DNA from: a virus
Length of the DNA: 35,521 nt
Reading direction: 5' to 3' (one strand)
IMG/VR virus record: IMGVR_UViG_3300023096_000013
Coordinates: 1-35,521 of that record
The translations under genes were made by a program, and so were the position numbers. Each line of letters opens with the position of its first letter. Position 1 is the first letter of the stretch. This document shows, piece by piece, positions 9,962 through 29,356 of this stretch. The notes under the pieces are model-generated. The model was not told the DNA's origin, ran no database searches, and saw only the letters and a program-made list of their open reading frames with translations.

Positions 9962-11290
9962 TTACTTAGTAGATGATGTACTGGCCCCGACGGAGCCGGT
10001 CTTTAGCGCTGGTTTACGTGTAGGCGGTTGATCGATGGCTATTTTATCTGTTTTTACCAATTCACCATCAATTGTTTTAAGATTAGACGGGGGTAGTTGG
10101 CCTGCAGATTGAGGCATGTTACTGTTAATAAGTTGATCTGCTTTGGGGTCCTTGGCGGGTTTAATACCCATGAATTGCCGCATCTCGTTCGCAGTAACAA
10201 TTTCGTTACGAGCAAGCTTATCGGCAATCTCAGCAAGGTCGCTGATGGGGACCATCTTGAACGGATCACGAAAGGACATGATAGACTGCTTTTGTGAGCG
10301 AGCGGTCTTAGTGATGAACTTCCGCTTCATCTCTTCAACAAGGGCGGCAATAATCGGCTCGATCGTGCGGTTATGATAGTTCTTCATGGTTGCTTCGTCC
10401 GCGGTACCGTTCATTACCTCGGGCGTTAGACCAAGCTGTGAATACAATTGTGCGGTAAGCCACTCAACCTGCTTTAGCAGGTTGTTTTCGACTGGGCGAT
10501 TAAGCTGCGTGATCTTCTCGGTACCATCGGTGTAGGCGATACCGTACTTGCTTCCACGAAGTTGACTTTCAATTTCCGTTCGACGACGATCAGCATCTTT
10601 TCTACGAGCATCAGTTTTGATGACGTATGGAAGCTGAATGATCATGTCGAGCTTACCCGAACTAACTTGCTCGTCCATGGAATCAAGAAGGCTGAGCTTG
10701 CGAATGAGTCGCTGAAGAGTTGAGTTGGGTTCATTCATTACGGTATAGAGAGGGTTCTCTACGATCGCGACGAATTTCTTGTCAAGGGTTACCTCTTGAC
10801 GCTTTCCTTCGTTTTCGTTGTATACCTCAACTCGTACCTTCGTGGGGTGCCAGCCAACAATATGACCGACGCGCATGGTCTTAATGTCGAAGCTTCCCGA
10901 CGCGTTCGGATTGATAGTCGTGTCTACTGGAACGACAGCCACGACTCCTCGGTCGAACATAGTCATAACAACATCTTGTCGGAAAGCCCGAGCTGCCTGA
11001 TCCATATTAGCTTCGACGGTAAGACAGTTATTCAGTCCGCTATCGACGTCGCCTATGTATCGCTTTTCATCGTCCAGTCGAACATGAAGAATATCAATAG
11101 CGGCGCTATCGAGTGCCAATCTGTTGTAGATCGACGAAATAATCGAACGCTCGTTACCAAAAGTCATTCGCGTTCGATCTGGACGAGTACTGCCATACGA
11201 CATTGGTCCGTTACCAAACGCAAAGTCGTTTCGAATTTCTAGACCAATAAAGGCATTCCAAGCGTGCTTTAGTCGGTCAACGATTGGCAT
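9962..11290 (-). CDS. Portal protein (HK97 type)
   Basis: The 442-residue product contains typical portal elements: ERSIISSIYNRLALDSA, a beta-rich wing (VRVEVYNENEGKRQEVTLD), SSGKLDMIIQLP, then the clip/stem helices EWLTAQLYSQLGLTPEVMNG and MKNYHNRTIEPIIAALVEEM. IVTANEMRQFMGI is the usual C-terminal helix. The tail is long, Pro- and Lys-rich and probably disordered. The ATG at 11290 is preferred over a GTG two codons earlier because AAAGGGGGTG lies 3 bases before it. It lies between the tagged minor capsid genes and the capsid fusion. Confidence 0.9.
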   Translation of the reverse strand: MPIVDRLKHAWNAFIGLEIRNDFAFGNGPMSYGSTRPDRTRMTFGNERSIISSIYNRLALDSAAIDILHVRLDDEKRYIGDVDSGLNNCLTVEANMDQAARAFRQDVVMTMFDRGVVAVVPVDTTINPNASGSFDIKTMRVGHIVGWHPTKVRVEVYNENEGKRQEVTLDKKFVAIVENPLYTVMNEPNSTLQRLIRKLSLLDSMDEQVSSGKLDMIIQLPYVIKTDARRKDADRRRTEIESQLRGSKYGIAYTDGTEKITQLNRPVENNLLKQVEWLTAQLYSQLGLTPEVMNGTADEATMKNYHNRTIEPIIAALVEEMKRKFITKTARSQKQSIMSFRDPFKMVPISDLAEIADKLARNEIVTANEMRQFMGIKPAKDPKADQLINSNMPQSAGQLPPSNLKTIDGELVKTDKIAIDQPPTRKPALKTGSVGASTSSTK

Positions 11291-11303
11291 GTTCACCCCC
11301 TTT

Positions 11304-11966
11304 CTACTTCATTGTAGTGATCTTGAACGCGCCACGAGCTGCCTTGGCGTACTTCAGCTTAGAGGCTACGGTCCCAATAGCCTTTGGGGCCTGGGAAGCT
11401 GCGCGAGCAGCATTGCGATTGGCGCCGGCTTTCATAATAATTCGAGCCGAAGCCTGCTTTCCTGCATATGAAAGAATGGCAGGAGACATCAATGCTCCCG
11501 TAACGGTTAGCGCTCTAGCCGTCTGCGCGCCGATTCGTTTCTGGACTGGCTTGTTAGAGGCCTTATTATATGCACCCGTAGCTTGCTTGTATTCAATTAC
11601 TTTGGACGTGATCGCCGTTCCGGCAATAGTGCCCGCAGTTACGCCGACGCCGAAGCCGCTAGACGTAAACATGGCTGCGGCAATCTTTTCGCCGGTCGTC
11701 ATTCGCGCAGCAATAACTCGGTCTGGGTTCTTCAAATATTCTTGATGCCGATCGCGAAGGTTCTTCTCAAGCTTTGCTCTCGCCTCCGAACCGGCGGCGG
11801 ACTTCTCGTATTTCTTATAGTCCTTGCGATATGCCGAACTTTCAGATCGTAGGCGTCTTCGTGCAGAAACGATCTGAGAACCTGTGGCTTTTCGGTGCCC
11901 CCACTTCATACCTTTGACGCCGAAGTGAGCAAGCTCATCCAAAGGAGGCTTGTCTGGCTCGATCAC
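11304..11966 (-). CDS. Tagged minor capsid-type protein (HFGVKGMKWG), 220 residues
   Basis: The N-terminus KPPLDELAHFGVKGMKWGHR (from residue 6) carries the recurring motif. The rest is a basic helical segment (ARRRLRSESSAYRKDYKKYEK) and then a Gly/Ala-rich region with hydrophobic stretches at about 96-115 and 150-175 (FGVGVTAGTIAGTAITSKVI). This looks like a membrane-active or pore-like part. Proteins with this N-terminal motif are common next to terminase and portal genes in phages and are presumed to be structural. No enzyme motif is visible. The start overlaps the upstream stop as ATGA. A role as injected or inner capsid protein is inferred. Confidence 0.7.
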   Translation of the reverse strand: MIEPDKPPLDELAHFGVKGMKWGHRKATGSQIVSARRRLRSESSAYRKDYKKYEKSAAGSEARAKLEKNLRDRHQEYLKNPDRVIAARMTTGEKIAAAMFTSSGFGVGVTAGTIAGTAITSKVIEYKQATGAYNKASNKPVQKRIGAQTARALTVTGALMSPAILSYAGKQASARIIMKAGANRNAARAASQAPKAIGTVASKLKYAKAARGAFKITTMK

Positions 11967-12622
11967 GACATACCCATGTTCTTGAGAAATTCAGAAGCAG
12001 ACATTCCTGCTCGCATAGCATTCTTACCACGAATATCGCGGTAGGCCTTCTTACCGGCGTTAACCACAACCTTATCAATGCCCGTCTTATGTACCGCGGC
12101 CCCTGCCACAAATAAACCAGCAGCAAGCGCAGAGGCATACTGAGTGTTGCCACGCAGCATATGACTTACGCCTCGAGCGGTTTTAGTGGTGGTATTTTTT
12201 ACATCCTTGCGCCTGCGCTCAGAACGAGCCTTGTCCGTATGCTTAGACATGTCCTGAGAAGCAAGATGGTGATCAAAGGCCTTTTTGTAGTTTGGGTCTT
12301 TCTTACTCTTACCCTCGACGGTACCCTTGATCAGTTTCCGACGATTACCAGCGCCTTCGCCGTAGAATTGCCTAGCCCGAGCAAACTCCTTAGCATCCCT
12401 GGCAGCGTCTCGGCTGACCTTTCGAGAAACTCCAGGAATATCGCTTTTGCGAACCCCCCACTTCATGCCCTTGATACCGGCGTGCTCGATAACGTCTTCA
12501 TCATCAAAGTCAGAAAATTCGAATGGAGTAAAACCGTAATCTTCGTTGAGACGGCGAAGATTCTTTTCGGCCTCCTTAAAGCCACCAGCTGACGGGACAA
12601 TAAACCCCGGAGTCCTAAACAT
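11963..12622 (-). CDS. Tagged minor capsid-type protein (HAGIKGMKWG), 219 residues
   Basis: The motif IEHAGIKGMKWGVRKSD is at residues 45-61, further in than in its neighbours. It is followed by a very basic helical region: FARARQFYGEGAGNRRKLIK and KHTDKARSERRRKDVKNTTT. This region looks nucleic-acid-binding. A hydrophobic segment at about 163-185 (YASALAAGLFVAGAAV) follows. The basic block is a conserved phage family that I have seen near portal genes but cannot name. It overlaps the next gene by 4 bases and follows the zincin-like gene by 2. It may be packaged with DNA, given the charge and the motif. Confidence 0.7.
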   Translation of the reverse strand: MFRTPGFIVPSAGGFKEAEKNLRRLNEDYGFTPFEFSDFDDEDVIEHAGIKGMKWGVRKSDIPGVSRKVSRDAARDAKEFARARQFYGEGAGNRRKLIKGTVEGKSKKDPNYKKAFDHHLASQDMSKHTDKARSERRRKDVKNTTTKTARGVSHMLRGNTQYASALAAGLFVAGAAVHKTGIDKVVVNAGKKAYRDIRGKNAMRAGMSASEFLKNMGMS

Positions 12623-12624
12623 GT

Positions 12625-13362
12625 TTACCGCTTCTCTCGGAATGGGGTGTCGTCGACTCCCAGTTCATTATGAAGAGTTTTCCCCCACTCTTGTACGAAT
12701 TTTGGCGGGTTCGGACTCCAGTGATATTGGGAAAATAGCTCAGCCTCTAGTTCTTGCCGATTACCAGATGATTGAGCGTAACCGGAAACCTTAGCTACGA
12801 AGTTGCTTCGCGAAACACCATCTTTTTTAGCTGCCTTAACTGCTACTTTAAGTGCTTTATCACGAGCCTGAATATTAGCGCCAACAAGTTTAGGCGCAAG
12901 AAAACCTGTTTTTAGCTTGTCGTCGACATGAAAGATTGCATGTGCCGATTCATGTGTGAGAAAAGCTTTTGTGTTCCCGCAACCTTCACCGAGCCAACCA
13001 ACATGCTCGCAGTGCTTTAGATCCTTATGAGGATCCTTTGTACCTACGTGGATAACCGCGCCTTGTCCACGAACCCCCGGTTTCACATACCCAACCATGT
13101 CCGGACTATAGCCTGGCTCTTTTGGATCCATCAGCCTAATATCGCTGATGTGAAAACCGTACCGCTTATCCATCAGTGAAGCTACTTCTTTCGCAGCAGC
13201 CTGTGTTGGTTTAGGTACTTTTGGATCAATAGTCAAGGATTTCGACGCTTGAAGTGCCAGTATTCCGGTAGGCTCATCTTCCTTACGAATACCCCACTTC
13301 ATCCCTTTGACACCGAAGTGAGCAAGCTCATCCAAAGGAGGCTTCTCTTGTCCAACTATCAT
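12625..13362 (-). CDS. Tagged protein with HExxH metallopeptidase-like motif
   Basis: The 245-residue protein starts with EKPPLDELAHFGVKGMKWGI, nearly identical to the protein encoded at 11304-11966. The body contains KAFLTHESAHAIFH, a zincin HExxH site (His 137, Glu 138, His 141). A candidate third ligand is in the acidic helix RQELEAELFSQYHW (about 202-215). An additional Cys/His cluster, HCEHVGWLGEGCGN, lies just before the motif. It may cut a capsid, host or cell-wall substrate after packaging, but no substrate is visible. The start overlaps the terminase stop (ATGA). The HExxH reading is clear; the family is not identified. Confidence 0.68.
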   Translation of the reverse strand: MIVGQEKPPLDELAHFGVKGMKWGIRKEDEPTGILALQASKSLTIDPKVPKPTQAAAKEVASLMDKRYGFHISDIRLMDPKEPGYSPDMVGYVKPGVRGQGAVIHVGTKDPHKDLKHCEHVGWLGEGCGNTKAFLTHESAHAIFHVDDKLKTGFLAPKLVGANIQARDKALKVAVKAAKKDGVSRSNFVAKVSGYAQSSGNRQELEAELFSQYHWSPNPPKFVQEWGKTLHNELGVDDTPFREKR

Positions 13363-15101
13363 TCAAAGGCCTCCTTGTTAAGCTTGTATGCAATGTAAGC
13401 GTCCATGAGGGCAGCCACGTTATCGATTTTATCTTGGTATCGAGTCTTAAGCAGTTTGCGGTTACCGTTAGTGTCTTCAAGTGTAATAGCGTTACCCATT
13501 GCAAACTGCATAAGGTCTTCGTCGAAGAAGAGTTGCCTTTCGCCAGACAAAATCTTCAACTCACCAAGAGGTACCGATTCGGTTCGCGATCCCTGAAGAA
13601 CCTTCTCGATACCGTACGGACCGTTCTCTTGTTCCCATCTAGTTACGAATTCTTTAGCATTATAAGGGTCATAACCAAAGGATCGAACATCATACTCATG
13701 GGTTTGAATATGACGATCAAGATCGTCATACACATCCATCATGTCAAGAACAGAGCCCTCGAGAACGTGAAGACTACCTTCTTGCATAAACTCTTCGTAC
13801 TTTTGGCGCATAGCGCTTGGAAGCTTGGCTAGCGTTAGACTTGTAATGTAGCTGCGCGTCTTTACTCCGAACCCATTCCTTACAGGAAAGAGGAAGGTGA
13901 ATGCACAGAAGTCATCGCCCTGCGATAGGTCCGCACCCATCGCACACGGCATTCCGTCGAAGTGTTGGCGCCGGAAAGGAATCGTCTCTTCGTAGGTGAA
14001 GAAGTACGTATAACCCTCCATCGGAATTCCGAAGCGCTTGGCGAGAATGTCATTCCTTGACGCAGGCGCTTTCTCGGCACGTTCAACATCTAATTGGTAG
14101 GTGTCATACGTTACCGTCTTTCCCAGGTTCGGGTTAGCCTTAAGCCACATCCGAGGATCGTTTACTTCATCGATTTTATCTAGCTTATAATGCCAGATAG
14201 AGATGTGTGGTGCCTGATAGTCGTTTCTGAGGATAGAAGCAAGTTCCATTTTGATGGTATCGCCAGAACCATTGCGAACGGTTCCCTCAGAGCTGACAGC
14301 CACGATGAGATAGTCATCAAGTTTGGAGGCGCCTTGCTCAATTGCTCCGATGACGTCTTCGCGGAGATCTCCAGACAACCATTCATCTACTGTGGCTACT
14401 TTTGTTCGAAGGCCCTGAAGCTTATTGATTGACATTGGGCGAACTTCGAGCAAAGACCCGGTCAAGAAATTTTCGACGCCCTTCTTGGTGGCGGCGAGCT
14501 TGACTCGATTGGCTTTAGAGCCCGTGGTGTTCTGTAGAGAGCCGTCAGTCAAGAATTTGAACAGTGGTCCTCGACTTCGAGTAACCGCAGTTCGAATCGG
14601 AGACATGACTTCTTCAGCCTGCTTCATCGTTGGGGCCGTGGTGATCTGATGCGTCGTATGCGTGTCAACGTTCAAAAAGTAACTTTGAATGCATGATTCA
14701 TACACCGACTTAGCAGCACCTCGGGCAACAATAAGATACTGCTTGACCGTCAAACGCTTTTTAATGGTTCTTGTTACGTACGTTCCGCCCAGGTTATCTG
14801 GATCCGGCTCATACACACTACGATCAGTAAAGTACCACCAACCAAAAATCTGCTCTGCCCAAAGCTTGAAGGAAGGCAGTAAGTGTAGATCAGATCCGTC
14901 AGTTAGTGTTAACTCGTTTTCGCAATAGAGAATAAAGCCGTTGATAGCTTCGTCATCGTAATAAAAGTTGGGGTTGGCGATGAGGCTATCGATGCGGTTC
15001 ATCTCCAACGAAATCTCTTCATTAACAGGGATCTCTCCACGGATGACCGCTTCGCGGAACATACCGTAGTAATAAGGTGTTGCCGTGTTTGACAACGCCA
15101 T
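13359..15101 (-). CDS. Terminase large subunit
   Basis: The 580-residue HK97-type terminase pumps DNA into the procapsid and cuts it. The start at 15101 is chosen because AAAGGAGG lies 6 bases upstream; the frame is open for 28 codons before it. The ATPase has a variant Walker A, VARGAAKSV (about 125-133), and Walker B VATVDEW (Asp 239, Glu 240). The nuclease domain begins MGADLSQGDD (Asp about 391). FGYDPYNAKEF and KIDNVAALMDA supply later acidic residues. The small-subunit candidate and HNH partner lie 2.9 kb upstream, separated by the lysis and anti-defence genes. Confidence 0.93.
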   Translation of the reverse strand: MALSNTATPYYYGMFREAVIRGEIPVNEEISLEMNRIDSLIANPNFYYDDEAINGFILYCENELTLTDGSDLHLLPSFKLWAEQIFGWWYFTDRSVYEPDPDNLGGTYVTRTIKKRLTVKQYLIVARGAAKSVYESCIQSYFLNVDTHTTHQITTAPTMKQAEEVMSPIRTAVTRSRGPLFKFLTDGSLQNTTGSKANRVKLAATKKGVENFLTGSLLEVRPMSINKLQGLRTKVATVDEWLSGDLREDVIGAIEQGASKLDDYLIVAVSSEGTVRNGSGDTIKMELASILRNDYQAPHISIWHYKLDKIDEVNDPRMWLKANPNLGKTVTYDTYQLDVERAEKAPASRNDILAKRFGIPMEGYTYFFTYEETIPFRRQHFDGMPCAMGADLSQGDDFCAFTFLFPVRNGFGVKTRSYITSLTLAKLPSAMRQKYEEFMQEGSLHVLEGSVLDMMDVYDDLDRHIQTHEYDVRSFGYDPYNAKEFVTRWEQENGPYGIEKVLQGSRTESVPLGELKILSGERQLFFDEDLMQFAMGNAITLEDTNGNRKLLKTRYQDKIDNVAALMDAYIAYKLNKEAFE

Positions 15102-15121
15102 CGCCAACCTCCTTTCACTTT

Positions 15122-15616
15122 TTATGAACCAATTGCTCGTCGAGGGCTCTCGATTGCCGAAGCGAAGTTTTGGCCGGTAGTCCAAGATTCAGCACGAAGG
15201 GGTCCGGTGTTTCCGCCCCCATTTGCGAAAGGATTTCGCAGCCAAGAAACCGTGACGTCCCTGAGTACATCGTTAACGAACTGGCCAGCCCACTTCTTGC
15301 CGGCGTTATGCCATTGTCGTTCGCCGTATAGCTCTTTGTATTCGCGTTCCAATTTCATCCGATTAATAACCAAACGCATCTCATGATTGTTGAGATTCTG
15401 AACGCCACCAAGCTTCGCTCGAGCCATGTATACATGAGACTTTTTCGCATCTTGCGACGGTTGATACGCCGTTTTAACGACCTTACCTCCGGCGCGACCG
15501 GCTGATGCTACTTTATCTCGAATAACGCCCCACTTCATACCTTTAACACCATAGTGCTGAATAACAGCGTCATCAACTACGGGGTTAGCAGTACGACTGT
15601 GACCGGTTCTGGCCAC
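15122..15616 (-). CDS. Tagged minor capsid-type protein (HYGVKGMKWG), 164 residues
   Basis: VIQHYGVKGMKWGVIRD lies at residues 18-34. It is followed by a basic linker and helices (LNNHEMRLVINRMKLEREYK, then HNAGKKWAGQFVNDVLRD). The C-terminal 35 residues are Gly/Asn-rich. This is the first tagged gene in the order of transcription and lies between a connector gene and the large terminase. It overlaps the connector gene by 40 bases. It probably belongs to the same inner-capsid class as the genes after the terminase. Confidence 0.68.
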   Translation of the reverse strand: MARTGHSRTANPVVDDAVIQHYGVKGMKWGVIRDKVASAGRAGGKVVKTAYQPSQDAKKSHVYMARAKLGGVQNLNNHEMRLVINRMKLEREYKELYGERQWHNAGKKWAGQFVNDVLRDVTVSWLRNPFANGGGNTGPLRAESWTTGQNFASAIESPRRAIGS

Positions 15617-20192: not shown

Positions 20193-20478
20193 GATCCCTT
20201 GTGAGATCCGTGCTGCTTCCGGACTCCAATGTAGAAACTGCTTGCGAGTCTGCTCTGACCTTTGTATGTTCTCCAGAAACATTCTCGGTGACAATCTTAT
20301 CTATTGCCTCTTGAATGGCTAGTTCTTGATCAGAATCCGATAATTCGGACGATGTACGTACCACTCTAGCTAACAATGAATTACTATTGTAGTATCGCAT
20401 GTCCCATGCTAACCACTCATCATAGTGGGTTACAGGACTGTATGGATTGTCTGTAGTGGTAAGCATGTAATAGTCCAT
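20182..20478 (-). CDS. Conserved phage protein, 98 residues, unknown function
   Basis: MDYYMLTTTDNPYSPVTHYD continues EWLAWDMRYYNSNSLLARVV, a pattern I recognise from other phages without a function. The second half has SSELSDSDQELAIQEAIDKI and a Ser/Thr-rich tail. The start and the polymerase stop share one base, so the two genes are translated in series. Its fixed place after the polymerase gene may mean a related role. Confidence 0.65.
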   Translation of the reverse strand: MDYYMLTTTDNPYSPVTHYDEWLAWDMRYYNSNSLLARVVRTSSELSDSDQELAIQEAIDKIVTENVSGEHTKVRADSQAVSTLESGSSTDLTRDRAA

Positions 20479-23222
20479 TAGTCTCCTTCCCCACCTGATA
20501 CTGCATCCTTAATGGTAGACACAGAGACGCCTAGATCAGCAGCAATCTCAGCCCAAGTGTAGCCTCTTGCATGGAGGGCCTTAGCCTTAGCCGTATTAGT
20601 GGCAGTCATCTTAATGACTGTCTTGGGGGTGGCTAGTTCCTTAACCCTATCAAGGTCGGCATAGGTTAAGATCTGATCTAGTTTGTGAGATGTGATAGCA
20701 CCCGCTTGAATAGCGGCCCACTCAAGATCAGTAATCTCAAACTTCTGCTTATCAGCACCAGTTCTTGTACGTGCAGCAACAAGGGCCTGCGATTTAAGTC
20801 TTTTAAGTTCAGCCTTGTTGTCTTTCAACTTAAGGTCTGGATTAGCTTGAACCTTGAGTCGAATAGTAGCGGCTGCAATGACCTGGGCTTGTCTTTCAAG
20901 GGGGGCATTCTGGTGAGCTGTGGCTACTTTAGAATTAAGCGTTTCAACAGCAGAGCTATAGGCTTTTTTGGCGGCAGGATTATATTTTCGCGACTTAATG
21001 GTCACTAGTTCTTTACGCGCCTGGTTAGCCAACGCTTTCAATCGATTCGAATGATCAGCGTATATTGACTCGATGACCGTGCCCGAAGAAAGAGTATGTG
21101 CATCGTCCGTGTCTGCGAGCTTGTCTACTTCAGTTTTATTCTCGCGAACATGAGTTTTACCGTGTTCATCGATCCACGTTCTCGATTTACCGGTTTCCTC
21201 ATAGACTTTCTTTCCTGTTCTCGGGTCAATAGGCCCACCCTTGGCCGCACTTCGTTCTTTGCGCTCAGGAACTTTCTTTGGCGATGTTGCTCGTGAAATA
21301 AGAGTAGATGCACCACCCGTACTTCTACCCTGATACCTCGACATGAGCGCCGGGATACCATTATCCTGAGACGAACGACGGTAATCGAGGTTGTGTTTTT
21401 CTGCGTCAATCACGACCATCGAATGACGAACTGCTCGAGCAAGTTCTTCAGTATTCGCGCCGCGAATAGTCATGTCGGTGATGAGATTAGAAACCAATCC
21501 CATCTGCATACCTTTTTCCCGAGCCGTCATCTTCTTCATACCTTCATATGGAGGATATGAAGTTTTGGGGTCGAAGTTTCTCAGACCCTCAAGAGGGGGC
21601 GTAGTTCTTACCTTACCCAGATTATTGGGTACGACAAGCACCGTATCGCCATCGAAGTCCGCACCAGAAAGACGCTCAGCAACCTTAGGGTGAATACCAA
21701 TGGCATCTTGAGCGTCAAAGCCGAGGAGTCTCCTACCCGTTGGATTCTTGTTGTTTACCGTGAGCTCTGGAATTTCAAACGTTCCGCCATGGGGGAAACG
21801 AATAAGCGCTACACGCTCTCCGTCATTAAAACCAGGTGCGTACACTTCACCGGGTTTCATATCTTTGATCGGTAGAATAACCTGAGTCTTCTGTCGAGGA
21901 AGCGCGGCAGCCTTCAAGTGCACAGCAGATGAGTCGGCGCTATCTGCAAACGCTTCAAGCAACTTCCTACGAACCGATGGATTTGTAAGTCGCATAATGC
22001 CATCAAGTTCTGTTTTTTTCTTGTCGTACGTGAGCTGAAGTTGATCCTTAGCCAACGAACGGCTCTGTTTTGACAGCATCTGCGAAGAGAGGCTTCTAGA
22101 CCACTTATCCCAGTCACCCTCGTCGTTAACGATGTTCATCACTGAGGTGGGCTTAACGACTTTGGTGGTTCGTGGGTCGCGCTCACCAATTTGTCGACTG
22201 ATGCTAGCGCCGAAGGGATTGTCTTGATCGACTTCTCCGTCAGGCGTCTTCTTTAGTTCTTTCATAGCATCTAACTTGTTACCAGTATTTTTCTTGTTCG
22301 TGTTGAACAAGATGTCCACTCCGTCAGGCAGCTGCTTGCCATCAACCTTAATAGCCATACCTTTAAGATAATGGGTTCCATCAACCATTACTCGAACTTG
22401 GCTGTATCTCTTACCACCTAGAGATACATCATCAACGCCGTCTCGCACGTACATAACGCCATCGGCATCGCTTCCACCATCTTCGTCATAACGAATGCCC
22501 ACTCGCTTTGAACTGATGGATTTAGGTGGCGCCATACCGAGTACAGTTAGACCACCGTCGTTAGAGAACTCTTGAATTTGCTGGATCAGATGTCGATTCT
22601 TCTGGACATCGGCCCATGAAGTTCCCGGCTTGGCCAAGATTCGCATGTTCGTCTGATTATTAGTAGTAGCTTGCGGAATCTTGACTTCGCGTACAACGTA
22701 CCCTTCTTCTTTTAACTGCTGAAGTGCAGCGCGAAGCTTGGTACTAGTAACTTGCAACTGATACTCAACGCCCGAACCAACGTCAATATAACTTTTCTCA
22801 TCTACGGCTCTGCGAAGCGTATCAGTTACTGTAGTAAGAATCTTGGCTTTACGTTCCTGACTCGGGTTGAGCAAGGCACGAACTTGAGATTCTCCCGAGA
22901 CCTTATAACCTGCCTCTCGCATACGAGAGGCGATGGCTCCGTTTGAGAGGCCCTTTTCCTTCAGCTTCTGAGCCATGTGGATCTCGTCTTGCTTGCGTTC
23001 GTTACGAATAATAGTACGAGCATCGCGAAGCTGGGTGGTGGTGATGCCTAGACCACGAGCAATCTCGGTGTCGTTCAGACCCTCTTTTTTAAGGTCGTTC
23101 ACCATACCCAGAAAGGTCTGATTACGTTCGCCTTGGGTCTCCCCTGAACCCCAAGGATAGCGTCCTGATTTGCGAAGGATCCCGTAGTGGGCGAAGTGAT
23201 CTTCTTCTCGAATGGTAACCAC
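20478..23222 (-). CDS. Single-chain two-barrel RNA polymerase (YonO/QDE-1 type) with capsid-motif N-terminus
   Basis: The protein has 914 residues from the GTG at 23222, which follows GGAGGACTAAGA; a TTG seven codons earlier is open. Residues 12-27 are HYGILRKSGRYPWGSG. Two helix-turn-helix units (about 49-71 and 92-118) and a winged-helix-like part (to about 200) follow. First barrel: YLKGMAIK with Lys 287 and 292, then LPDGVDILFN, like the beta-subunit lysine pair and VDIVLNP. Second barrel: ERVALIRFPHGG, IGIHPKVAERLSGADFDGDT; the three Asp of ADFDGD (522, 524, 526) would bind the catalytic Mg. LARAVRHSMVVIDAEKHNLD resembles the trigger/bridge part of RDR-type enzymes. A C-terminal helix-turn-helix (887-908) completes it. 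No sigma or accessory subunit is seen. Confidence 0.82.
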   Translation of the reverse strand: MVTIREEDHFAHYGILRKSGRYPWGSGETQGERNQTFLGMVNDLKKEGLNDTEIARGLGITTTQLRDARTIIRNERKQDEIHMAQKLKEKGLSNGAIASRMREAGYKVSGESQVRALLNPSQERKAKILTTVTDTLRRAVDEKSYIDVGSGVEYQLQVTSTKLRAALQQLKEEGYVVREVKIPQATTNNQTNMRILAKPGTSWADVQKNRHLIQQIQEFSNDGGLTVLGMAPPKSISSKRVGIRYDEDGGSDADGVMYVRDGVDDVSLGGKRYSQVRVMVDGTHYLKGMAIKVDGKQLPDGVDILFNTNKKNTGNKLDAMKELKKTPDGEVDQDNPFGASISRQIGERDPRTTKVVKPTSVMNIVNDEGDWDKWSRSLSSQMLSKQSRSLAKDQLQLTYDKKKTELDGIMRLTNPSVRRKLLEAFADSADSSAVHLKAAALPRQKTQVILPIKDMKPGEVYAPGFNDGERVALIRFPHGGTFEIPELTVNNKNPTGRRLLGFDAQDAIGIHPKVAERLSGADFDGDTVLVVPNNLGKVRTTPPLEGLRNFDPKTSYPPYEGMKKMTAREKGMQMGLVSNLITDMTIRGANTEELARAVRHSMVVIDAEKHNLDYRRSSQDNGIPALMSRYQGRSTGGASTLISRATSPKKVPERKERSAAKGGPIDPRTGKKVYEETGKSRTWIDEHGKTHVRENKTEVDKLADTDDAHTLSSGTVIESIYADHSNRLKALANQARKELVTIKSRKYNPAAKKAYSSAVETLNSKVATAHQNAPLERQAQVIAAATIRLKVQANPDLKLKDNKAELKRLKSQALVAARTRTGADKQKFEITDLEWAAIQAGAITSHKLDQILTYADLDRVKELATPKTVIKMTATNTAKAKALHARGYTWAEIAADLGVSVSTIKDAVSGGEGD

Positions 23223-23224
23223 TC

Positions 23225-23797
23225 TTAGTCCTCCGCTTTCCAATAGGCAATCATCTTCGCGGCGGCCTTGATTTTACTCATAGTTAATATAATGTCCGAA
23301 GACTCGGGCAAGAATTCATCGATGGCATCGTTTTGATAAATTTTTAGAACAACCGATACATCTCTCGGATCGAAGAGATCCTCATACTCGAAAAAGAAGA
23401 TACCTGCATAAATAAGTAGCTGCTTCATACTTGCTGGGATGATGCCGGTCTTCAGATCACTAATTCGAAGAACGTATTTACCACGCTCATTACGAATACC
23501 AGCCGAATCAGCAGTACCAAAGCAATTTTCTGTATAATACAACGGAACTTCAGCTTCCATGCGGAAACCAATAGCGTCGTTGATATACATACTCATAGTG
23601 GTGTTGTTGTCAGCCTGCACGATACCAAGCTCAATTGCTTGCTGAGCATAGGCGTGCATTTTATCGCCTCGAGACGCTTGCTGTTTCTCGAAATACACGC
23701 GACGAAGTTTTTCTTCGTCGTAGTCGAGCCAATGATAATTACTCGGACTAAGAAATGCGTGCTGTCCGATGATTCTTGTATTCTTTTTCAAGCTCAT
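23225..23797 (-). CDS. Cas4/RecB-like PD-(D/E)XK exonuclease
   Basis: The 190-residue protein carries the nuclease core: RGDKMHAYAQQAI helix, MEAEVPLYY (Glu), GTADSAGIR (Asp), LRISDLKTGIIPAS (Asp-x-Lys) and KQLLIYAGIFF (the QxxxY helix). This order is that of RecB-family nucleases used in phage recombination or DNA turnover. The four-Cys cluster of Cas4 is absent. It overlaps the upstream nuclease gene by 50 bases and ends 3 bases before the polymerase GTG, so the three form one operon. Confidence 0.78.
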   Translation of the reverse strand: MSLKKNTRIIGQHAFLSPSNYHWLDYDEEKLRRVYFEKQQASRGDKMHAYAQQAIELGIVQADNNTTMSMYINDAIGFRMEAEVPLYYTENCFGTADSAGIRNERGKYVLRISDLKTGIIPASMKQLLIYAGIFFFEYEDLFDPRDVSVVLKIYQNDAIDEFLPESSDIILTMSKIKAAAKMIAYWKAED

Positions 23798-24083
23798 CTA
23801 GAACGGCCTCTTCGTTCTCGGGATGGATAAAAGCCGCGAAGCACCATCGACCGAACTTTTCTATATAGTACGGTTGATTCGGTTGTACATCTGCGGTAGC
23901 GCTGATCTTCGCTTCGAGGAAAGCCCAGAAGCCACCCTTGAAAACGACCAGTCGATCGGGATGTCCTTGGCGATTATCCAAGATGATGACCTCGCAGTTG
24001 TCTTCACCGAACCGCGCGTAGATCTTATCGGTCAACTTGGTCTTGTATCGACCTTCACCTTGTCGTGCCAAAGGATTATCCAT
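23748..24083 (-). CDS. VRR-NUC-like nuclease
   Basis: The 111-residue protein contains GHPDRLVVFKGGFWAFLEAK, with Asp and Glu-x-Lys of a PD-(D/E)XK site. QPNQPYYIEKFGRWCFAAFI follows as in VRR-NUC proteins. Stand-alone phage members are thought to cut branched DNA. It begins in KTKLTDKIYARFG. The downstream gene starts inside its last 17 codons. Confidence 0.8.
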   Translation of the reverse strand: MDNPLARQGEGRYKTKLTDKIYARFGEDNCEVIILDNRQGHPDRLVVFKGGFWAFLEAKISATADVQPNQPYYIEKFGRWCFAAFIHPENEEAVLDELEKEYKNHRTARIS

Positions 24084-24086
24084 TCA

Positions 24087-24145
24087 TCGCAGAAAAAACA
24101 CGGCTTATTCTATCCCTTCTATTATTATCCATGTTTTGCGAGCGT
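24087..24145. promoter_or_regulatory. Inverted pair of the phage promoter-like element
   Basis: The minus strand reads CTCGCAAAACATGGATAATA and the plus strand TCGCAGAAAAAACACGG with TTATTCTATCCC after it. Both match the element in front of the genes at 28-29 kb (see 28563-28596). The two copies face each other with about 25 bases between them. The minus-strand copy supplies a TAATAAT box before the VRR-NUC gene. Confidence 0.5.
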
Positions 24146-24153
24146 TAGGGTAT

Positions 24154-25114: not shown

Positions 25115-25149
25115 AAGGGCTGACTCTCCTCACGAAAGAGTCAGCCCTT
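25115..25149 (-). terminator. Perfect 13-base-pair hairpin at the helicase stop
   Basis: AAGGGCTGACTCT pairs with AGAGTCAGCCCTT around a 9-base loop. The helicase stop TGA is inside the first arm. The T-run after it is poor, so it may slow exonucleases or act as a weak terminator. Confidence 0.6.
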
Positions 25150-27390
25150 GAACAGTCGTCGGAAAGCACTCTCGTTGAACGTTTCTTTCGCCTTCAATGA
25201 CCTCCCAATGGCCCTATCGATGAAGGAATCGGTCGTGAAATCGTAGTACCAGAGATCTTTGAATGGCGTGTTAAGCCGATCGATCCGCCCGTACGCTTGC
25301 TCGCAAACCTTCCATGAGTAGTTGCGGGAGTACATAATCATGGCATCTGTCTCGGTGCAATTCCATCCCTCGGCCCCAGCAGTATACTGGACTAGGTAGA
25401 GCCACCGGTCAGTCTTCGGTATTTGTTCGTGCTTATGACCGTTCCACTCGGCTATCGCTGAGGTTGATGCTGCGTCGACTATCACCTTCGATGATGTCGA
25501 GCCAGACAGACTGCCCTTCTTCTGGGTCACTTTCGTACTTGACAGATAAGGTAATTGAGGCATCCTTGTTGGATCTGAATCGTTCGACAAACCCTGCGAT
25601 CCATTCATCGAGGTTGTCGTTGAGGGCGTTCCACAAAGCTCTTTCGAATTCGCTAGTTCCATCAGAACGTCCGCGTGACACGCTAGAGGATGACACCAGC
25701 AAACCAAATCCTTTCCACGTAGCTCGTGCAGATCCTTCATCAAGTCCGACGACAGGATGTAATCCCGGAACATCGCAATGACTTGCTCCCGAGTCCCATC
25801 CTTACCAATCTCAAACGGGTTCCCCCACTTGGAGGGCCGCCCCACATAGATTTGATTGGAGTTAGAAACCGGCCCTACGTCTCGAGCATTGAATACTCGA
25901 AGGCCTTCATTCCTCTTCGATGTTTCGTCCATCAGGGATGTAGAAGACGGGGTCGACTTGGAACCATCGATAGATCTTGTCGCGATTATCGAATCCAAAC
26001 TCCCAAAGGATTCCGTTGTCGTCTTCGAACCATTGCTCTTCCCCGAAGAGCTTTGCGTCATCGGGATTGTACTCTGATCCGCCAGACTTCTTAAGAGCTC
26101 TAATTCGTAATTGAAGTTGTAGAACACGATCAGTTTCGGATGATTCTGCCATAGCTCCTGTACCATCTGTAGCCTGCTAGGATCGCTGTTGACGACCTTT
26201 CGACCTACACTAAACATCTCAGCTACGTCTCGTAAAGGACGGCCCTCATAGACGTTCCAGCGTCGTTTAAGAACCGTCTCCAGCAGTTCTTTATCGTAGC
26301 TAAGCGGCACCTCAACGATATGTCTATTTGTATGTCTCTCAAACGGCATATCCACAAGAAGACTCGAGCGCTGACGAATCAGTCGCCCAATGTTAATATA
26401 GCGATCCACCTTCGGGAACTTGGTGAAGGTGTTGTAGACAACGTGCTCGCGCTTGAACTCAGTGCGATTCTTGTAGAAATTGTTTGCTACGAAGACTGGA
26501 ATATAGTCCATCCAGGTGTCCCCTGGCGTGCCGCTTAGCAGAATCCACCGGTTGCGCTTGGCGATCCGAAGGAATTTCCGTGTCCAGTCACCCGACCCAA
26601 CGAGTCGTTGCTCATCGAAGATGAAGAAGGCTCCGGCAACATCAGCGTACTTGGCGATGTTATTCCAGGAGTCGACGGTGAGGACCCAGGGGTATTGTCC
26701 GGCTTTGTAAGACCCGCAGCCTCGCGTAGCTCTTCCTCCGAGTACGTCTTGTTCGCCTCGTCCAGAATCGTCCGAACTTCCTGCACCTGTTGGGTGAATG
26801 TCAATTCCCTGAAGCGAATTCTCTCCGCCTCCGGATCCCAGATCGGTTCTGGCCTCACACGTACAGATGCCTCTCGCAGGGACTCGACCCGCCTTGCCCT
26901 TTCCTGAATTCTCTCGTGATACGTTGGATTTCTGTCCAGTATGTCTTCCAGTTTCTGCATGTTCACCAACAGACCCGCTTGATCCTCGTTGGCCTCGATT
27001 ACAGTCGCAATAGGCACTGAGGGATCTTGAGTCACCACCATCTCGCGAACGATCATCTCTTCCATTTCCAACTCCCGTTCGAGACTTACCTCGCCCTTTA
27101 GCTGCTTTTTTGCCAACATAAGGAATCGACACAGGTCCCGACAAGGGTCCAATATCAAGTTGATAAAACTCTTCCTGCCAGTCGAAGGAGTCTCGCTTCT
27201 TGGCAGTGGTGATGACGTAGACATCTCTTGGTGCCTCGTATTCTTTGTAATAGGCTGCAGCTACTCGAGATTTACCCGAACCTGGTGCCCCACACAAGAT
27301 CTTGCCGTTGTTGAGTTTCTTGAATGCCTTGTACTGGTGGTCGCGTAGATATGTACGCAGTTCCTCATCAGTCATGTGCTGAGTGATCAT
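25141..27390 (-). CDS. SNF2-like DNA helicase with two odd-frame inserts
   Basis: The start at 27390 follows AAGGAG; the frame is open upstream but only as shadow of the preceding gene. The frame encodes 749 residues. Walker A is GAPGSGKS (34-41), motif II FFIFDEQRLVGSG (about residue 257), motif III LLSGTPGDTW (about 287). The C-lobe has LIVFYNFNYELELLRSLA, EWNGHKHEQIP, YTAGAEGWNCTETD and YGRIDRLNTP. This set matches actinophage SNF2-like helicases. Residues about 91-228 and 442-645 do not fit the family. They are Ser/Gly-rich low-complexity in this frame, whereas another frame of the same DNA looks like normal protein (next entries). Part of the second insert, a DUF4326 domain, is in this frame. 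Confidence 0.8.
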   Translation of the reverse strand: MITQHMTDEELRTYLRDHQYKAFKKLNNGKILCGAPGSGKSRVAAAYYKEYEAPRDVYVITTAKKRDSFDWQEEFYQLDIGPLSGPVSIPYVGKKAAKGRGKSRTGVGNGRDDRSRDGGDSRSLSAYCDCNRGQRGSSGSVGEHAETGRHTGQKSNVSRENSGKGKAGRVPARGICTCEARTDLGSGGGENSLQGIDIHPTGAGSSDDSGRGEQDVLGGRATRGCGSYKAGQYPWVLTVDSWNNIAKYADVAGAFFIFDEQRLVGSGDWTRKFLRIAKRNRWILLSGTPGDTWMDYIPVFVANNFYKNRTEFKREHVVYNTFTKFPKVDRYINIGRLIRQRSSLLVDMPFERHTNRHIVEVPLSYDKELLETVLKRRWNVYEGRPLRDVAEMFSVGRKVVNSDPSRLQMVQELWQNHPKLIVFYNFNYELELLRSLADQSTIPMTQSSSGKSNGSKTTTESFGSLDSIIATRSIDGSKSTPSSTSLMDETSKRNEGLRVFNARDVGPVSNSNQIYVGRPSKWGNPFEIGKDGTREQVIAMFRDYILSSDLMKDLHELRGKDLVCWCHPLACHADVLMELANSKELCGTPSTTTSMNGSQGLSNDSDPTRMPQLPYLSSTKVTQKKGSLSGSTSSKVIVDAASTSAIAEWNGHKHEQIPKTDRWLYLVQYTAGAEGWNCTETDAMIMYSRNYSWKVCEQAYGRIDRLNTPFKDLWYYDFTTDSFIDRAIGRSLKAKETFNESAFRRLFKG
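25433..25702 (-). CDS. Odd-frame coding-like segment in helicase insert 2 (third part)
   Basis: In the frame one base behind the helicase, FERALWNALNDNLDEWIAGF is followed by VERFRSNKDASITLSVKYES and EGQSVWLDIIEGD. This has normal protein composition, unlike the helicase frame here. The first 17 codons overlap the DUF4326 domain and are probably shadow. No good ribosome site is visible, so it may have been the C-terminal part of the DUF4326 protein before an indel. Confidence 0.4.
   Translation of the reverse strand: MLVSSSSVSRGRSDGTSEFERALWNALNDNLDEWIAGFVERFRSNKDASITLSVKYESDPEEGQSVWLDIIEGDSRRSINLSDSRVERS
25650..25930 (-). other. DUF4326 domain inside the helicase frame
   Basis: Within the helicase frame, RVFNARDVGPV, IYVGRPSKWGNPFEIGKDG, AMFRDYIL and LRGKDLVCWCHPLACHADVL form a complete DUF4326 domain. 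This small domain with a Cys/His cluster is usually its own phage gene. An ATG at the start of MDETSKRNEGLRVFNARD could begin it separately. The domain interrupts the helicase C-lobe before the NGHKHE motif. Confidence 0.75.
25907..26152 (-). CDS. Odd-frame coding-like segment in helicase insert 2 (first part)
   Basis: An ATG at 26152 follows ACAGGAG by 4 bases, a good ribosome site. Codons up to about 27 are shadow of the helicase. After that the frame reads EYNPDDAKLFGEEQWFEDDN, then GILWEFGFDNRDKIYRWFQV and DPVFYIPDGRNIEEE. This is normal protein composition. It stops just after the ATG of the DUF4326 part. No family is recognised. Confidence 0.45.
   Translation of the reverse strand: MAESSETDRVLQLQLRIRALKKSGGSEYNPDDAKLFGEEQWFEDDNGILWEFGFDNRDKIYRWFQVDPVFYIPDGRNIEEE
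26535..27119 (-). CDS. Odd-frame coding-like segment in helicase insert 1
   Basis: In the frame one base ahead of the helicase, an ATG at 27119 opens MLAKKQLKGEVSLERELEME. It runs as a charged helical protein: NMQKLEDILDRNPTYHERIQ, PEPIWDPEAERIRFRELTF, QQVQEVRTILDEANKTY, to about 26705. The rest to the stop is shadow of the helicase. Over the same DNA the helicase frame is Gly/Ser/Arg low complexity. It is either a nested gene or an inserted domain put out of frame. Confidence 0.4.
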   Translation of the reverse strand: MLAKKQLKGEVSLERELEMEEMIVREMVVTQDPSVPIATVIEANEDQAGLLVNMQKLEDILDRNPTYHERIQERARRVESLREASVRVRPEPIWDPEAERIRFRELTFTQQVQEVRTILDEANKTYSEEELREAAGLTKPDNTPGSSPSTPGITSPSTLMLPEPSSSSMSNDSLGRVTGHGNSFGSPSATGGFC

Positions 27391-27604
27391 CCACTCCTTC
27401 CCAAGGACCAATACCATCAATCTCAAGCCAGCACTCACGGCCACCATTATGACGCCACCGCCAAATGCTAAACCCTGGTCCACAGTGGTCGCATTCCTCG
27501 GGCGTTCTATCGGCGATATCGCCATGACTGTCTTTTACAGCCACTACAGTCATTGGTGGTTCTTCGGAAATAACACGCTCGCTAATCCATGGCGCCTCGT
27601 TCAT
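27368..27604 (-). CDS. Small zinc-binding-type protein, 78 residues
   Basis: The protein reads EECDHCGPGFSIWRWRHNGG followed by RECWLEIDGIGPWEGVDDHS. CxxC and later His and Cys residues could bind zinc. Its ATG directly follows the TAA of the DUF3310 gene. Its end overlaps the helicase start by 23 bases. The upstream extension of the helicase frame is only shadow of this gene. No family is recognised. Confidence 0.6.
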   Translation of the reverse strand: MNEAPWISERVISEEPPMTVVAVKDSHGDIADRTPEECDHCGPGFSIWRWRHNGGRECWLEIDGIGPWEGVDDHSAHD

Positions 27605-28195
27605 TTAACTGAGTGTTCCATTCAGCTCAGAGCCCGTACGATAGAACCGATCGAAAATACGCTTACCATGACCATCCGCGCATTGATAGGTAGTAATAGC
27701 TGCGTCTGGGGCAGGGACCAACGGTTCCGTACACACCGGGCACCGATAGACGTATGCTGGCGGTGGGACATTTGCAAGCTTTTGCTCAAAGTTGCAGTTT
27801 ATACACTTGTGCGTCTCAGACCCCTGATCATATTCAAGTGGACTATTATCGCCGTTAGGGCAACACCAACCGCGCGCTGAGTCCCACACAGCACCTAACT
27901 TAGCAGAGGCACTCTCCGTGGCGTTCATAATATCGGCCCGTACGAGCGATTGAGACTGTGCCTTCTTCAACCGCTCAATCTCAAGATGAAGATAGAAGCG
28001 AGCCTTCTCAAGATCTTCAATGTGATTGTCAGGGTTCTTCCACCCTGCACGAGCAATGTACTTGAACGCATTGCCGAGATTGAAGCCGCTCTTACCATCC
28101 GGACCAACTAGTTGAACGCAAACATCAATCACTTCGAACCCCTGATACTGGTTATAGTGACTGGGGTGCTTAACTTGTTCGCTCTTGTTTTCCAT
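27605..28195 (-). CDS. DUF3310 protein with C-terminal zinc ribbons
   Basis: The protein has 196 residues. The N-terminal part is a DUF3310 domain: KHPSHYNQYQGFEVIDV, NAFKYIARAGWKN and HIEDLEKARFYLHLEIERL. This small domain is found in phages and linked to nucleotide metabolism without proof. Residues about 105-196 hold two CxxC pairs (HKCINCNFEQK, YRCPVCTEPL) plus CCPNGD, likely zinc ribbons. AAAGG precedes the ATG by 5 bases. It follows a promoter-like AT-rich stretch. Confidence 0.72.
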   Translation of the reverse strand: MENKSEQVKHPSHYNQYQGFEVIDVCVQLVGPDGKSGFNLGNAFKYIARAGWKNPDNHIEDLEKARFYLHLEIERLKKAQSQSLVRADIMNATESASAKLGAVWDSARGWCCPNGDNSPLEYDQGSETHKCINCNFEQKLANVPPPAYVYRCPVCTEPLVPAPDAAITTYQCADGHGKRIFDRFYRTGSELNGTLS

Positions 28196-28289
28196 TATAA
28201 CCTTTGTATGAGATGAGTATAATGCGAATTATATACAATTTGGTCAATTTTAGAAAAACTAAAAACCATGTTTTGTTCAGCGAGCAAAG

Positions 28290-28562: not shown

Positions 28563-28596
28563 GGGTTCTCATTATAACCCATGTTTTTCATGCGAG
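28563..28596 (-). promoter_or_regulatory. Promoter/operator element, cassette 3
   Basis: On the minus strand CTCGCATGAAAAACATGGG is followed by TTATAATGAGAACCC. GGGTTATAATGAGAACCC is an inverted repeat (GGGTT/AACCC) that contains TATAAT. The same design is at 28891-28924 and 29265-29297. The -35 region falls on the T-run of the terminator before it and is weak, suggesting an activator or phage polymerase. Confidence 0.65.
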
Positions 28597-28604
28597 AAAA
28601 AAGT

Positions 28605-28890: not shown

Positions 28891-28924
28891 GGGTTCTCAT
28901 TGTAACCCATGTTTTCCATGCGAG
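28891..28924 (-). promoter_or_regulatory. Promoter/operator element, cassette 2
   Basis: CTCGCATGGAAAACATGGG is followed on the minus strand by TTACAATGAGAACCC. The inverted repeat GGGTT/AACCC holds TACAAT in place of TATAAT. It lies between a terminator T-run and GTGAAAGG of the next gene. Confidence 0.62.
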
Positions 28925-28931
28925 AAAAAGC

Positions 28932-28953
28932 GGAGCCCGTGTTACCGGGCTCC
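28932..28953 (-). terminator. Terminator after cassette 1
   Basis: GGAGCCCG and CGGGCTCC pair around GTAACA and are followed by GCTTTTT on the minus strand. It begins 6 bases after the stop of the gene 28960-29247. Confidence 0.82.
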
Positions 28954-29247: not shown

Positions 29248-29264
29248 TATAAATCCTTTCGTAA

Positions 29265-29297
29265 GGGTCTCATAATAACCCATGTTTTTTCTGCGAA
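29265..29297 (-). promoter_or_regulatory. Promoter/operator element, cassette 1
   Basis: TTCGCAGAAAAAACATGGG is followed on the minus strand by TTATTATGAGACCC. The repeat GGGTT/GACCC holds TATTAT. It is the first of three serial cassettes. Confidence 0.62.
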
Positions 29298-29305
29298 GGC
29301 AAAAA

Positions 29306-29333
29306 GATAGAGCCCGTGTTACCGGGCTCTATC
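29306..29333 (-). terminator. Strong terminator before the cassettes
   Basis: GATAGAGCCCG and CGGGCTCTATC make an 11-base-pair stem with a 6-base loop, followed by TTTTTG on the minus strand. It ends the transcript of the small-gene operon 32-29.3 kb. Confidence 0.82.
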
Positions 29334-29356
29334 CCACTGACCTTTTTGATGCGTTG

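Follow-up and report, generated by a model that had tools for sequence, protein, structure and literature searches.

Single-chain two-barrel RNA polymerases of phages are the closest described systems to the locus presented here. The siphovirus P23-45 of Thermus encodes two such enzymes, a vRNAP (gp96), which is packaged and transcribes the early genes, and an nvRNAP (gp64; PMC10770324), while YonO of SPbeta is a comparable single-chain phage enzyme and a DNA-dependent RNA polymerase (PMC5467207). P23-45 (PMC10770324) is therefore already an example of a siphovirus that carries a two-barrel polymerase in its virion, and the siphovirus setting, which a first-pass annotation of the DNA analysed here had put forward as a departure from the known virion polymerases, has a precedent. 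The DNA in question, called the window below, is a linear IMG/VR virus contig of 35.5 kb, taken as a whole. We consider it probable that this phage encodes a virion-packaged single-chain two-barrel DNA-dependent RNA polymerase that would act on early promoters of its own. The fold, the catalytic residues, the conserved tag with its resemblance to capsid tags, and the sense-strand element in the lineage were computed in the present work.

Results

Gene Family and Genomic Context

The open reading frame at 20478–23222 (minus strand), which is open as far as 23243, is predicted from its family match and fold to encode a single-chain two-barrel RNA polymerase of 914 amino acids belonging to phrog_4291. 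The profile of this family matched the window protein with 1253 bits (E 0), covering residues 3–910 of 914, and homologs with 37–59% identity to the window protein were found in 250 of 50,697 phage records; the signal of this open reading frame is thus not due to chance. The hosts or sources of these homologs were Arthrobacter, Gordonia, Streptomyces, Lactococcus, Curtobacterium, Rhodococcus, Microbacterium, Faecalibacterium, and human samples. Further homologs occur in more than 500 viral contigs and in 138 bacterial genome contigs, many of the latter from Lachnospiraceae and other Clostridia, and some of the polymerase-bearing relatives are prophages. In several relatives (G003, G011, G018, G029, and G042) the polymerase match is split in two near residues 560–680, a break that may mark an insertion-prone site in the protein. 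The databases name phrog_4291 “RNA-dependent RNA polymerase” or “helix-turn-helix DNA-binding domain protein,” and RefSeq also uses an RNA-dependent name; a virion role, a tag, or a promoter is described for this family nowhere in the literature and annotation searched.

Genomic context analyses revealed that all recognisable genes of the window read leftward. Starting from the right, the early and replication genes are followed by the exonuclease, the polymerase, a small conserved gene, the lysis genes, a tagged protein, the terminase, three further tagged proteins, the portal, a protease-capsid fusion, the tail genes, and the tape measure, an order that is the same in Lactococcus phage 1706 and Streptomyces phage Scap1. 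Profile matches identified the exonuclease (phrog_3953; 23225–23797) immediately upstream of the polymerase gene, and the small conserved gene (phrog_4303, cf. orf76 of phage 1706; 20182–20478) directly downstream of it, both on the minus strand. The open reading frame upstream of the exonuclease (23748–24083, minus strand) was assigned by position to the place where relatives carry a VRR-Nuc/endonuclease gene. Profile matches also placed on the minus strand the terminase large subunit (13359–15185), the portal protein (9962–11296), the protease-major capsid fusion that is a hallmark of the lineage (7970–9943), and the tape measure protein of a long-tailed phage (1–2856), which is cut by the window end. 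A helicase open reading frame (25141–27525, minus strand) contains a DUF4326 domain and stretches of low similarity between its helicase parts.

Predicted Fold and Active Site

The AlphaFold model of the polymerase, obtained from an alignment of 116 rows, had a mean pLDDT of 88.9 and a pTM of 0.80. The top Foldseek match of this model was QDE-1 (E 1.1e-8), and RDR2 and the phage enzymes P74 gp62 and P23-45 gp64 were also among the best matches. Alignment to QDE-1 with VIA-align gave a Z score of 14.7 over 373 residues (rmsd 4.8), spanning residues 231–742, and gp64 of P23-45 was aligned with a Z score of 12.6. The protein is accordingly predicted to have the fold of a two-barrel polymerase closest to the RDR/QDE-1 enzymes and the phage two-barrel RNA polymerases, in agreement with the RDR-type two-barrel enzyme proposed in the first-pass annotation. 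The comparison with gp66 of crAss-like phages (PDB 6vr4), also proposed there, fared less well than that with QDE-1, as Foldseek gave a weak match (E 3.8e-3) and gp66 was absent among the VIA-align matches listed. When the PDB was searched with profiles built from the sequences of the entire family or of its core, only helix-turn-helix or chance matches and no polymerase came up, and the assignment thus rests on structure and motif.

The catalytic loop ADFDGD, which had been noticed after IGIHPKVAERLSG, is present at residues 521–526 (21645–21662, minus strand); its Asp triad D522/D524/D526 (DxDxD) and indeed the whole motif, together with K287 and G288, are invariant in all 116 homologs. The second motif pointed out earlier, LKGMAIK (residues 286–292; 22347–22367, minus strand) followed by GVDILFN, is also present, but of its two Lys only K287 (116/116) held up, since position 292 is Lys in the window and Tyr in most relatives, and K292 is therefore not the second catalytic Lys. 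The likelier candidate for the second active-site Lys is K310 (22293–22295, minus strand), which is conserved in 115 of 116 homologs; K321 is invariant (116/116). A helix-turn-helix near the C-terminus (residues 880–907; 20502–20585, minus strand) scored above the Pfam cut-off for HTH_23 and is a candidate promoter reader.

A Promoter-Like Element in the Phage Lineage

The first sign of a promoter-like element was a repeat common to the intergenic gaps of phage 1706 and Scap1. The element, which is new here, has a length of approximately 30–35 nt and reads TCGCAnnWWWWACAnGnCCTATAATGAGA, with TCGCA and ACA at fixed distances of approximately 14 and 5 nt, respectively, before the TATAAT-like hexamer. 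Text searches of the literature for the tag and promoter sequences gave no relevant paper among the matches listed, with a partial coverage that leaves novelty unproven. The strict motif of phage 1706, TTTACANNNNCTATAGT, does not occur in the window, where the version is AAACATGGGTTATAATGAGA. By weight matrix, the element was located on the minus strand upstream of the exonuclease-polymerase gene group (24113–24147; TAACGCTCGCAAAACATGGATAATAATAGAAGGGA) and before the early genes starting at approximately 28546 (28563–28597; TCTCGCATGAAAAACATGGGTTATAATGAGAACCC), 28871 (28891–28925), and 29247 (29264–29298). A weaker match over the start codon of the DUF3310 gene (28186–28220, minus strand) may be spurious. 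Terminator-like hairpins lie just upstream of the 28891 element (28932–28953) and the 29264 element (29304–29335), both on the minus strand. The segment 28325–29247 (minus strand) holds three consecutive small early genes with membrane-like N-terminal segments, each with its own promoter-like element. A likeness of CCCTATAGTGAG to the reverse complement of a T7 promoter was rejected, since TATAATG is found at most sites, the flanking bases do not agree, and the orientation would be wrong.

The distribution of the element was strongly oriented. In each of ten polymerase phages, a leave-one-out weight matrix detected 5–13 sites, all of them sense and none antisense, against 0 sites in the SPbeta stretch used as control. 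In Secretariat and Rima, respectively, 10 of 11 and 11 of 13 sites were wholly intergenic, while the rest touch an annotated gene end or start. Across 128 polymerase loci the element was found 162 times in sense and once in antisense orientation, and it often preceded the polymerase by approximately 900 nt, ahead of the nuclease-exonuclease-polymerase group. Exact matches of the short form in 16 polymerase contigs were all on the polymerase strand (52/52), as compared to 2 matches of the reversed pattern. When IMG/VR was scanned with the pattern TTACANGNCCTATARTGAGA, at least 120 stretches matched, and the reversed form had no match in 2.9 million contigs. Among 43 long contigs with the element, the polymerase was clear in 34 and the capsid gene of the lineage was present in the other nine, which are therefore probably fragments. 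A 44-nt consensus matched 154 of 50,697 phage records, including 55 of Gordonia and 54 of Streptomyces, the same numbers as for the polymerase; all but two of these records belong to polymerase-bearing groups, and the exceptions are two Clostridioides records, of which the one among the matches listed had a match of 17 nt.

These data on a conserved promoter-like element support a putative role of the polymerase in early transcription, and we regard as unlikely the alternative that the polymerase does not recognise the element, which would instead be a promoter for a host sigma factor or be bound by some other conserved phage regulator. This alternative draws on the TATAAT hexamer, a perfect bacterial −10, and on the fact that motif and polymerase are both lineage-wide, so that their co-occurrence is not independent. 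Phage records with the polymerase gene are nearly the same as those with the capsid gene, which makes the polymerase inseparable from the lineage, and since the element tracks this lineage, another conserved phage protein, or the host RNA polymerase with help, could read it. However, the consensus has no −35 hexamer at the sigma-70 spacing of 16–18 nt before the −10, the conserved blocks being TCGCA and ACA at the shorter distances given above. In addition, the element is the same in phages of hosts from two phyla, Actinobacteria and Firmicutes, with genomes of 33–61% GC, and no other gene with a role in transcription was seen to be common to all element-bearing phages.

The N-Terminal Tag

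Residues 1–34 of the polymerase had a pLDDT below 50 in the AlphaFold model and are predicted to be disordered. Within them lies a near-invariant tag, HYGILRKSGRYPWGSG (residues 12–27; 23142–23189, minus strand). The pattern HxG followed by SGRY..G[SAT][GS], in the form HxG...SGRYPWGSG, was kept in 159 of 162 homologs, and conservation of a segment predicted to be disordered is the mark of a linear motif. The first-pass annotation had compared this N-terminus with presumed inner capsid proteins, and the tag indeed resembles the HFGVKGMKWGHRK-type tags of four open reading frames around TerL and the portal. These four window proteins, beside the terminase and the portal, carry the DUF7211 tag HxGxKGMKWGxR. 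Tag search located them on the minus strand at 15122–15616, upstream of TerL and at the position of orf7 in phage 1706, and at 12625–13362, 11963–12622, and 11304–11966. The protein at 12625–13362 has an HExxH motif (HESAHAIFH) and is possibly a metallopeptidase cargo.

The Pfam DUF7211 model gave no match to the polymerase at E values up to 1. A profile of the capsid-module tag, built from 138 DUF7211-type tags of related loci, had its top placement at the polymerase N-terminus in 156 of the 158 homologs with a match, with a median score of 4.2 bits and a best score of 9.9, compared to a best score of −0.1 for shuffled sequences. Of 2240 other open reading frames, approximately two reached the 4.2-bit median, besides seven evident tag variants. 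With a profile built on the long GPPYP tag variant, polymerases and controls could not be told apart by score, and hhalign on the tags gave an E value of 0.0065 with a probability of 5.8; the relation between the polymerase and capsid tags is therefore to be read as resemblance and not as proven descent. The long variant, HHGIxGQKWGVRNGPPYPLGGGDYSxxQ, occurs in L142, L153, L157, L164, and others, and is similar in its second half to R.SGRYPWGSGDxPxQ, the tag of the polymerase. Among 53 DUF7211-tagged proteins (L022–L171 and the window), a papain-fold glutamine deamidase toxin domain was seen in three, CW_7 repeats in one, and DUF6883 in one. Occurrence on varied C-terminal domains is how a cargo tag would behave.

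The polymerase homolog of Lactococcus phage 1706, orf75, carries the deposited name “structural protein” despite its position outside the structural module. The tag was found in this phage on orf7 (twice) and orf75, the only tagged 1706 proteins found, and both are labelled structural, a label that is the depositor's annotation. Two more “structural proteins” of phage 1706 lie outside the structural module, orf62 and orf71 (L011, 45052–45330 and 49658–50011), and orf71 is near the polymerase operon. Of 55 loci in which 8 kb or more of sequence follow the polymerase, 54 had a tagged open reading frame, with 117 tagged frames downstream of the polymerase versus 6 upstream, and the polymerase gene adjoins the late module.

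Packaging of the polymerase in the virion, with head loading via the N-terminal tag, is indirectly supported. A different role would be that of an enzyme outside the virion: the host RNA polymerase would transcribe the operon early, the phage polymerase would serve middle or late genes like gp64 of P23-45, and the tag would have some other function. The polymerase gene does sit among replication genes, the closest phage structures are non-virion enzymes, and prophage relatives need host transcription at induction. We nevertheless find this role improbable, considering the structural label of 1706 orf75, the tag common to the polymerase and the capsid-module proteins, and the operon promoter, which falls into one class with those of the early genes. 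Sigma-70-like sites near the operon promoter, moreover, are at chance level (8 in the window at 23.7–30.1 kb versus 7.0 by chance).

Discussion

In the mechanism proposed here, the product of the window gene would be a single-chain two-barrel DNA-dependent RNA polymerase that is taken up by the assembling head by way of its disordered N-terminal tag and enters the cell together with the DNA. There its transcription of the early genes would start from a promoter of its own, TCGCA ... ACA-N4-YTATART-G/AGA, which is probably read by the helix-turn-helix parts of the polymerase itself, without a host sigma factor. Since this promoter also precedes the exonuclease-polymerase operon, the enzyme would bring about its own production as well, both to supply middle transcription and to be packaged into progeny. 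The presence of the element at both the early genes and the operon suggests that the first polymerase molecules come with the virion, unless the host RNA polymerase reads the operon too. A host-dependent route must exist as well, because prophage relatives have no injected enzyme at induction. It is very improbable that the enzyme is an RNA-dependent RNA polymerase copying RNA, as the phrog_4291 and RefSeq names have it and as the best fold match, QDE-1, with its RNA and DNA templates might suggest, since this is a DNA phage with a promoter-like DNA element, QDE-1 also accepts DNA, and the comparable phage enzyme YonO is a DNA-dependent RNA polymerase (PMC5467207).

The interpretation given in the first-pass annotation is, overall, supported. 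With somewhat less confidence, we favour the broader view that an entire siphovirus lineage of Actinobacteria and Firmicutes begins infection with a free-standing polymerase that is packaged and has its own conserved promoter, and that a single short N-terminal tag brings both this enzyme and varied co-cargo, some of it with papain-fold toxin domains, into the head. If true, more than 240 sequenced phages would use a sigma-independent enzyme for early transcription that is annotated as DNA-binding or RNA-copying, and Streptomyces, Gordonia, and Lactococcus would gain a compact orthogonal polymerase whose promoter is known. The enzyme would also reveal a new route by which phage heads take up cargo and add a further branch to the evolution of two-barrel polymerases. 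Since both phages and hosts are available as cultured isolates, each step is directly testable.

Comparison with known systems places the window polymerase among several relatives in part. QDE-1 and plant RDR2, the best fold matches, with both barrels, are eukaryotic RNA-interference enzymes and have no tag. The DUF7211 tag (HxG...WG) marks the N-terminus of proteins from the capsid module in the polymerase-bearing phages, whereas the polymerase carries the version SGRYPWGSG, which the Pfam DUF7211 model does not recognise. YonO is likewise a single-chain two-barrel phage RNA polymerase, of approximately 100 kDa, but by-eye inspection showed FDNDGD and no tag, compared to ADFDGD and a tag in the window polymerase, and the SPbeta stretch is without the promoter-like element of the window lineage. 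The crAss-like phi14:2 gp66 (PDB 6vr4) is, according to the PDB entry name, a single-chain virion two-barrel RNA polymerase, whose solved chain has 2166 residues, as compared to 914 for the window polymerase. Finally, P23-45 offers a likeness in the fold of gp64 (Z 12.6), while its virion enzyme is part of a fusion with the tape measure protein, in contrast to the window enzyme, which is free-standing and has a short N-terminal tag and helix-turn-helix parts.
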